DNA from: Helicobacter sp.
GTDB taxonomy: Bacteria > Campylobacterota > Campylobacteria > Campylobacterales > Helicobacteraceae
Assembly: GCA_014799985.1 (NCBI GenBank)
Contig: JAAVGZ010000089.1
Coordinates: forward strand, 35,165-68,686
Length of the DNA stretch: 33,522 nucleotides
Reading direction: 5' to 3'
The notes under the pieces were generated by a model. It did no database searches, had not been told where the DNA came from, and was given only the letters and a program-made list of their open reading frames with translations. Shown piece after piece: positions 10,576-16,094 of the stretch. Within the stretch, counting starts at the first letter, position 1; the number at the start of each line of letters is the position of its first letter. Both the position numbers and the translations under genes were made by a program.

Positions 10576-14009
<3,434 letters not shown>

Positions 14010-14015
14010 ATAGTA

Positions 14016-14042
14016 TGTCCTTTAATTTAAAGATTTCTTTTT
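14016..14042. other. AT-rich putative DNA unwinding element of oriC2
   Basis: Low-GC stretch TCCTTTAATTTAAAGATTTCTTTTTT directly beside a TAGTAGTAG run and DnaA-box-like sites in the dnaA-dnaN gap. Confidence 0.6.
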
Positions 14043-14051
14043 TAGTAGTAG
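14043..14051 (-). promoter_or_regulatory. DnaA-trio-like element (CTACTACTA on - strand)
   Basis: TAGTAGTAG on + strand, i.e. 3'-GATGATGAT-5' read from the boxes, then GGG and DnaA boxes; layout DUE - trio - GC - boxes. Confidence 0.6.
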
Positions 14052-14054
14052 GGG

Positions 14055-14154
14055 ACGTGAAAATGTGAAAAACCCTTCATTGATTGGGCACAGCCGCTCC
14101 ATCTATCGTGAAATACATGGGACAAATCGCCGATGTTGCGCCCTTCTGTTCACA
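14055..14154. promoter_or_regulatory. DnaA box cluster (oriC2), core TTCAC
   Basis: ACGTGAAAA (14055-14063), TGTGAAAA (14064-14071), CGTGAAAT (14107-14114), TTCACA (14149-14154). Confidence 0.6.
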
Positions 14155-14169
14155 GCCATTCAAAAGCGC

Positions 14170-14178
14170 ATTGTAGCA
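14170..14178 (-). promoter_or_regulatory. Extended -10 promoter, probably for dnaN
   Basis: Reverse strand TATGCTACAAT, same context as the dnaA and ssrA promoters; upstream of dnaN, at the 3' end of dnaA. Confidence 0.6.
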
Positions 14179-14186
14179 TATTTTTG

Positions 14187-15482
14187 TTAGTTTTTCAGCC
14201 GAATCTTGCTCTGCAGCTCTTCGAGCTTGAGCTTGAAATCCTTGTTGGTCTTAATCTCGGTTTCGATGGCTTTGTATGCTTTGCTCACGGAGCTATGGTC
14301 TTTCATGCCCAAGCCCTGCGCGATTGATGGCATCGAGTTGGGCGTGAGCAGGCGCGCGAGGTAGATGACGATTCTACGCGAAAGCACGATTTTCTTGCGC
14401 TTTGATTTGCTGCTAATCTCGGAGGGCTTGATGTTGAAATCGAGCGCCACGGTGTCGATGATTCTCTCTAACGTGATGTTTGTGCTTTCCTCGACAATGT
14501 GCTCCTTGAGCTGCTGCCGCGCAAACTCGAGCGTGATGTCCTGCCCGATGATGTTCGCGGCGACATTGAGTTGCAAGATGTTCCCGCCAATCTCGCGAAT
14601 GTTGTTGTTGATGTTTGTCGCGATGAACTCAATCACATCGTTGGTCAGAAAGATTTTATCACGTTGGCAGATGTTCTTGATAATGCGAATCTTCGTTTCG
14701 AGCTCGGGTTGCAGAATCTCGCACACAAGCCCCGAGAGAAATCGGCTCTTGAGCCGCTCATCGAGCTTGTCGATGTATTTTGGGTGCTTGTCTGATGTCA
14801 TCACAATCTGCTTTCTGTTGTTGTGCAGCTCCTCGAAGGTGTGGAAAAACTCTTCTTGCAGCATATCCTTGCCTTTGGAGGCGAAAAACTGAATGTCATC
14901 AATCAATAGATAGTCGTTCGAGCGGTATTTTTCTTTGAATCTATCCATCGTCTTGTTGCGCAGATGATGCACGAAGTCGTTCAAGAATTGCTCGCTTGTT
15001 ACATAATTCACGCTCTTGTTGTGGCTCACATAGTTGCCAATCGCGTTCAGCAGGTGCGTTTTGCCAAGCCCCGTGCCGCCATAAATCAGCAGCGGATTGA
15101 ACTTCGCCTGATGTTTGGCGACATTCGAGGCGGCGTTGTGCGCCATGCGGTTCGAGCCGCCGACAACGAAGTTTTCAAATGTACATGTGAAATCGAGAAT
15201 GCTCGTGCGCTTGACATTTTTTTGCTTCGGCGGCGACTTTTTTTGGGTCGCGAGGATAATCTCGACCGTTGTCGTGTTGCCGTTGCGCAGCTCGAAAAGA
15301 TGCGCGATTCGCTGCATGTATTTCGTGCGCACCCAGTTGGCGATGAGGATATTGGGCGCGCTGAACACGGCGTGGCTGCTTGAGCTCATCTCCTCGATGT
15401 ATTGCAGCTGCCTAAGGTAGTGCTCGTACTCGACTTCCGAGATTTCGTCTTTGAGTTGTTCCAAAATTTCTTTGCTTTGCAT
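14187..15482 (-). CDS. dnaA: Chromosomal replication initiator protein DnaA
   Basis: Start MQSKEILEQLKDEISEVEYEHYLRQL; NPLLIYGGTGLGKTHLLNAIGNY Walker A; YLLIDDIQFF; C-terminal GLGMKDHSSVSKAYK box-binding motif. Confidence 0.98.
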   Translation of the reverse strand: MQSKEILEQLKDEISEVEYEHYLRQLQYIEEMSSSSHAVFSAPNILIANWVRTKYMQRIAHLFELRNGNTTTVEIILATQKKSPPKQKNVKRTSILDFTCTFENFVVGGSNRMAHNAASNVAKHQAKFNPLLIYGGTGLGKTHLLNAIGNYVSHNKSVNYVTSEQFLNDFVHHLRNKTMDRFKEKYRSNDYLLIDDIQFFASKGKDMLQEEFFHTFEELHNNRKQIVMTSDKHPKYIDKLDERLKSRFLSGLVCEILQPELETKIRIIKNICQRDKIFLTNDVIEFIATNINNNIREIGGNILQLNVAANIIGQDITLEFARQQLKEHIVEESTNITLERIIDTVALDFNIKPSEISSKSKRKKIVLSRRIVIYLARLLTPNSMPSIAQGLGMKDHSSVSKAYKAIETEIKTNKDFKLKLEELQSKIRLKN

Positions 15483-15496
15483 GATGTCCTTTGAGA

Positions 15497-15613
15497 CGTG
15501 AATAACGCAATTCACAGATGTGAACAAATCGGCAGTTCAGCGCGCATTATAGCATATTTGGCTAGAATCTGCCGACAAACCATGTGAACAACAAGGGAAA
15601 AGGCTGTGAATAA
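15497..15613. promoter_or_regulatory. DnaA box cluster (oriC1) between dnaA and ruvC
   Basis: CGTGAATA (15497-15504), inverted pair TTCACA-ga-TGTGAA (15511-15524), TGTGAAC (15583-15589), TGTGAATAA (15605-15613). Confidence 0.6.
15546..15554 (-). promoter_or_regulatory. dnaA promoter, extended -10 TATGCTATAAT
   Basis: Reverse strand TATGCTATAATGCGC, about 60 nt upstream of the dnaA ATG and inside the box cluster. Confidence 0.7.
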
Positions 15614-16094
15614 TGCAGGAAATGTGATTCTCGGAATCGACCCGGGCAGTCGCAATTGCGGCTATTGCGTACTGCACGCAAAGCCACGTGCGCAAAGCAT
15701 TCTCGAGGCGGGGCTCATCAGGATTCATGAGCGAATCTTGCAACATCAGATTCTCGAGCTTTGCGAGGGAATCGAGCTCATCTTGCGCCAACATCGGATT
15801 GATTGTGTCGCGATTGAGGACATTTTCTATGCCTACAATCCCCAAACCGTGCTCAAGCTCGCCCAGTTTCGCGGCGCGCTGTCGCTCAAGATTTTGCAAG
15901 AAATTGGCAATTTCGCCGAATACACGCCGTTGCAGGTCAAAAAGGCGCTCACGGGCAATGGCAAGGCGAAAAAGGAGCAGGTTGCGTTCATGGTCAAGCG
16001 GATTCTTGGAATCAAGGGCGACATCAAGCCGCTTGATGTAACGGACGCCATCGCTGTGGCGCTCACGCATAGCCAGCGGCTGAAGTTGTGGTGA
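15606..16094 (+). CDS. ruvC: Holliday junction resolvase RuvC (GTG start)
   Basis: [56 protein letters not shown]. Confidence 0.96.

Follow-up and report, generated by a model that had tools for sequence, protein, structure and literature searches.

A probable three-trio unwinding region (oriC2) between dnaA and dnaN in an uncultured Helicobacter-like lineage

Introduction

Replication origins of the kind considered here are already known from Helicobacter pylori (PMC8235120) and from Wolinella, Arcobacter and Sulfurimonas (PMC5043019). In H. pylori, oriC2 is composed of the boxes ts1 and ts2, a GC-rich spacer, a DnaA-trio and an AT-rich region; opening was lost when the trio was disrupted or reversed, but not when the GC-rich spacer was changed (PMC8235120). 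A comparison of four species found no conserved box pattern, and a single proximal box was footprinted in three of them; the predictions in the same study had pointed to a double proximal box (PMC5043019). The mapped AT-rich region of W. succinogenes spans 28 bp with 14% GC in a genome of 48% GC, and the gene order ruvC-dnaA-dnaN-gyrB is typical for the class, several Helicobacter species excepted (PMC5043019). The basal unwinding system (BUS) of Bacillus subtilis joins DnaA-boxes 6 and 7 to DnaA-trios (PMC6669920, PMC8287927, PMC10721633). Its trio rule calls for at least three trinucleotides with a conserved middle A (3'-GAT-5'), situated 0-16 bp from a box (PMC8287927). Trio-bound B. subtilis DnaA is represented by the structure 8btg, with N187, I190, I193, R202 and E228 as trio-contacting residues (PMC10721633).

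The window, meaning the whole stretch of 33,522 nucleotides that was analysed, is part of an 85,266-bp contig (C48) of a draft assembly of 1.28 Mb in 93 contigs, 62% complete. Judged by DnaA identity, the named relatives nearest to it are assemblies of uncultured Helicobacter sp. (99% and 97%) and a Helicobacteraceae bacterium (69%). On the minus strand the initiator gene dnaA (14187-15482; ATG at 15480-15482, preceded by AAAGGA) is followed by the sliding clamp gene dnaN (12936-14009; ATG at 14007-14009), whose leader holds the unwinding region, and then by gyrB (10576-12927). The divergent ruvC (15606-16094, plus strand) lies upstream of dnaA, which gives the class-typical order ruvC-dnaA-dnaN-gyrB (PMC5043019). 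An initial annotation had proposed an oriC2 with a BUS in the dnaA-dnaN gap. Layout, shuffles, uniqueness and conservation support this proposal, and its layout agrees with that of the origins mapped by experiment in H. pylori, W. succinogenes and B. subtilis. We assign a probability of roughly 93% to the reading that the chromosome origin is bipartite and that this site, oriC2, is its unwinding half.

Architecture of the Two Intergenic Regions

The dnaA-dnaN intergenic region (14010-14186, minus strand) comprises 177 bp at 40% GC and reads, on the minus strand, TTTTTCACATTTTCACG-TCCC-CTACTACTA followed by AT-rich DNA. Its tandem pair consists of the distal box TTTTTCACA (14064-14072) and the unwinding-proximal box ATTTTCACG (14056-14064), both on the minus strand; the latter points at the unwinding region and is identical in the two closest relatives (G001 and G003). 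These had been described as two tandem TTCAC sites, and both are present, but they are not separate: the 9-mers overlap by one base and the cores stand 8 bp apart. At positions 2 and 3, the box sequences depart from TYATTCACN, the H. pylori consensus. The adjoining GC-rich spacer (14052-14055, minus strand), first given as CCC, is real, but reads TCCC (or GTCCC after the core). Its sequence is not conserved among relatives, which agrees with the tolerance of spacer changes in H. pylori (PMC8235120). Beyond it are three DnaA-trios, 5'-CTACTACTA with 3'-GATGATGAT on the complementary strand (14043-14051, minus strand). They form three strict CTA units 4 bp past the proximal box, with both boxes of the pair co-oriented beside them. 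The layout had been called complete, and every element is there, but the word is generous, as three trios are the minimum (PMC8287927).

The AT-rich part of the DNA unwinding element (14020-14042, minus strand) is marked by low GC content and duplex instability. GC content falls to 12% over the 25 bp of 14020-14044 in a contig of 52% GC, in line with the AT-rich stretch that had been noted beyond the trios. When nearest-neighbour energies were computed for 30-mers along the 85-kb contig, of about 85,000 positions a single other locus was at least as unstable as the 30-mer 14021-14050, which covers the AT stretch and most of the trios. The dnaN ribosome-binding site is located at 14018-14022 (minus strand). 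In most genomes of the survey described below, 32-57 nt separate the first trio from the dnaN ATG, and the unwinding region is therefore squeezed between the trios and the dnaN ribosome-binding site.

Two further TTCAC cores had been recorded in the gap, and they belong to a third box, TATTTCACG (14107-14115, minus strand), and a fourth, CTGTTCACA (14146-14154, plus strand). The fourth is oriented outward and resembles the outward distal oriC2 box of W. succinogenes; with the proximal boxes on the minus strand and this one on the plus strand, the arrangement agrees with the orientation rule for Campylobacterota (PMC5043019).

The oriC1 half occupies the ruvC-dnaA gap (15480-15613), where five TTCAC-core boxes are found on mixed strands: TTATTCACG (15497-15505, minus), CAATTCACA (15508-15516, plus), two copies of TTGTTCACA (15519-15527 and 15583-15591, both minus) and TTATTCACA, which overlaps the ruvC start (minus). 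Five cores in this gap and four between dnaA and dnaN give TTCAC clusters in both, the bipartite pattern of Campylobacterota, and these are the two densest TTCAC clusters of the 85-kb contig. The ruvC-dnaA gap contains a mean of 4.0 TTCAC cores in 69 relatives, against 0.43 in shuffles. The initial annotation dealt with oriC2 and made no mention of oriC1.

Chance expectation was estimated from 20,000 dinucleotide shuffles of the dnaA-dnaN gap. Four or more TTCAC cores arose in 0.035% of them and the 8-bp tandem pair in 0.025%; a box together with CTACTACTA arose in none of the 20,000. The pattern TTCAC-N(0-16)-CTACTACTA has one match in the 1.28-Mb assembly, the oriC2 site itself, and read backwards it has no match across the assembly.

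Cumulative GC skew along the 85-kb contig reaches its minimum at window position 12,025, some 2 kb away from the site. Inside the window the skew is weak and noisy, and for this genome, a draft in 93 contigs, the skew evidence is of contig scale only. A complete relative numbered from dnaA (G011) was sampled in twenty 20-kb blocks; skew is positive in the samples between 20 kb and 1.2 Mb and negative in those from 1.28 Mb to the end, and the sign therefore changes at dnaA. As far as these data reach, the skew is compatible with the proposed origin placement, for which the initial annotation had named it as a check.

Comparison with Described Origins

Among the closest known origins is H. pylori oriC2 (PMC8235120), with which the site shares a fused or overlapping double box, a short GC-rich spacer, CTACTACT trios, an AT stretch, the polarity of these elements and a bipartite arrangement with oriC1 upstream of dnaA. 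The differences are that dnaN directly follows dnaA here, as in most of the order, and lies elsewhere in pylori-type genomes; that three trios are present, whereas H. pylori has more; and that both boxes carry the TTCAC core, while ts1 of H. pylori reads TYATTCCWT. W. succinogenes oriC (PMC5043019) has the same ruvC-dnaA-dnaN arrangement and likewise places unwinding between dnaA and dnaN. Also shared are TTCAC cores, a trio, the outward distal box and some 25-28 bp of AT-rich DNA, with a GC content of 12-14% against about 50% for the genome. One proximal box was footprinted there, whereas two good cores 8 bp apart are found here. The B. subtilis BUS (PMC6669920, PMC8287927, PMC10721633) likewise runs from box to box, spacer, trios and AT-rich DNA between dnaA and dnaN with the same polarity; however, its box consensus has TTATCCACA in place of the TTCAC core, and it has six trios rather than three. 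C. jejuni oriC (PMC6052347) resembles the site in its dnaA-dnaN location, TTCAC cores and unwinding region, and differs in a degenerate trio, the lack of a GC spacer and a probably monopartite organization.

Conservation Across the Order

In the two closest relatives (G001 and G003), the 30-base core from boxes to trios is identical at 30/30 positions and the remaining gap is 85% identical. A more distant genome (G002, 70% DnaA identity) retains 27/30 positions of the core in a gap whose remainder is 41% identical (71/172). The number of trio units is three in four members of the genus, and the mode across the order is five (35 of 85 automated calls). The initial annotation had named conservation of TAGTAGTAG and of the box spacing as a check on its proposal, and both are kept in congeners, with variation through the order.

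For the order, the region downstream of dnaA was surveyed in 98 genomes, 81 of which have a dnaN homologue next (tblastn; loci L002-L099). A box plus trio was scored when at least four of the five core letters were present no more than 19 bp from a trio array in fixed polarity. By this measure the pair stands at the same place and with the same polarity in 72 of the 81 dnaA-dnaN gaps, compared with 7% of shuffles and 2/81 on the reverse strand. Because most of the nine gaps scored as trio-less contain, by eye, trios that are degenerate or interrupted, for example CTACTACGACTACTA, 72/81 is a lower bound. Trio-like repeats occur at the equivalent position in 18 of the 19 families having dnaA-dnaN gaps.

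The survey also brought out the double box as a by-product that is modestly new. A perfect core and a second core of at least four out of five letters stand at a spacing of 8 in 43/81 gaps, against 0.2 in shuffles; every other spacing is found in 10 gaps at most. By family, the 8-bp double core is present in 15/19 under a strict criterion and in 19/19 under a loose one. Across the gaps compared, the signal speaks for a conserved double box, one of whose members may be weak. The importance of a weak second proximal box thereby becomes a testable question, on which conservation supports the double box.

A further by-product, also modestly new, concerns genomes in which dnaA and dnaN lie apart: the unit goes with dnaN in two genera and with dnaA in the pylori-type genus. 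It is found upstream of dnaN in five genomes of genus g10 (L160-L164) and in two g2 genomes, G058 and G017 (L165, L166). In the pylori-type genus g7 (compared loci L085, L087, L088, L095 and L168-L171) it is downstream of dnaA in 4/5 genomes, and dnaN has a plain promoter. The genes are 14 kb apart in G024 and 85 kb apart in G034, both complete genomes, and the two origin halves would therefore be equally far apart. The local GC-skew minimum of G034 (1,100,598) falls between dnaN (1,059,349) and dnaA (1,144,824); that of G024 (1,106,749) falls beyond both genes (dnaN 1,094,818, dnaA 1,080,640). Neither minimum singles out dnaA or dnaN as the marker of the origin. Such naturally split loci raise the testable question of whether oriC1 must adjoin oriC2. 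A literature search found no paper joining H. hepaticus, oriC and dnaN. A wider generalization can be put forward tentatively, although on balance we doubt it: that throughout the Campylobacterales a fixed composite TTCAC-N3-TTCAC platform, rather than a single box, seats a DnaA dimer and passes it to the trios, and that the pair, spacer, trios and AT stretch form a movable cassette able to leave dnaA and travel with dnaN, with halves 14 to 85 kb apart in one Helicobacter genus.

Proposed Mechanism and Rival Explanations

The best solved-structure match of this DnaA is 8btg (E 2.6e-81). Aligned with it, the B. subtilis trio positions N187, I190, I193, R202 and E228 are occupied by N, V, L, K and E, respectively. 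Judged from this alignment, the trio-contacting chemistry is kept, with two residues unchanged and the others replaced conservatively. No match to HobA (PF12163) was obtained in the 62% complete draft, and control genomes were likewise without a match. The mechanism is most likely the same as in H. pylori and B. subtilis (PMC8235120, PMC6669920, PMC8287927, PMC10721633), and binding, oligomer growth, strand opening and looping are proposed here by analogy with experiments in those two organisms. Through domain IV, DnaA-ATP would bind the overlapping TTCAC boxes at 14056-14072. Protomers added next would extend from this duplex anchor over the 4-bp spacer to the single strand 3'-GATGATGAT-5' (complement of 14051-14043), held through the AAA+ domain. 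The adjoining A/T stretch (14020-14042) would then open and take the helicase, while the two outer oriC2 boxes and the oriC1 cluster upstream of dnaA would form a larger complex, probably looping over dnaA. On this reading, an uncultured Helicobacter-like lineage has its origin located to some 60 bp, and the BUS model gains a clean example with the minimal number of three trios.

The same letters might instead be read as regulatory. The TTCAC pair and its T/A-rich run could serve regulation alone, as a site in the dnaN leader for DnaA or an HP1021/Cj1509-type regulator, with the origin elsewhere or confined to oriC1. A promoter-like extended -10 upstream fits such a site, as does the presence within the distal box TTTTTCACA of TTTCACA, the Cj1509 box-1 sequence of C. 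jejuni (PMC6052347). Left unexplained, however, are the conserved trio array and its polarity, the fixed spacing between box and trio and the extreme duplex instability, and W. succinogenes, S. denitrificans and A. butzleri unwind at the equivalent place in vitro (PMC5043019). We consider a purely regulatory site very unlikely; a regulatory role and an origin role can coexist. Another possibility concerns the trios themselves: CTACTACTA is short, of low complexity and only three units long, so that it might be a triplet repeat arisen by chance, or belong to a -10-like element of dnaN, leaving the AT stretch and the boxes as the parts that matter. Yet CTACTACTA arises in 0.01% of gap shuffles and is invariant in four congeners, one of which has strongly diverged flanks. 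The 18 of 19 families with trio-like repeats and the blocked opening in H. pylori after trio disruption or reversal (PMC8235120) point the same way, and this alternative has scarcely any likelihood.

Candidate Promoters and Minor Observations

A candidate dnaN promoter with the extended -10 TATGCTACAATGC lies at 14168-14180 (minus strand), just past the dnaA stop and upstream of all oriC2 boxes. A near-identical extended -10, TATGCTATAATGC, is found between oriC1 boxes at 15544-15556 (minus strand). From their sequences the two look like twin promoters of dnaN and dnaA, each in a DnaA-box cluster, and DnaA could therefore control both genes. An extended -10 within 37 nt of the dnaA stop occurs in 22/81 gaps, compared with 2.5 in shuffles and 2 within the 45 nt that precede dnaN, a modestly new observation. 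Because this element stands near the dnaA stop, transcription of dnaN probably runs through the boxes and the unwinding region. A literature search on a dnaN promoter inside oriC returned nothing relevant.

Two minor observations can be added. Single Ns are scattered at about 1,500-1,800 of contig C48 (about -33,600 in window coordinates, hence beyond the window), and perhaps reflect unresolved strain variation of the draft genome. In the complete genome G079, the DnaA AAA+ domain has ten weak matches that resemble one another; they are dispersed, are mostly of equal length and probably represent a multi-copy insertion-element ATPase of the IstB/DnaC type.
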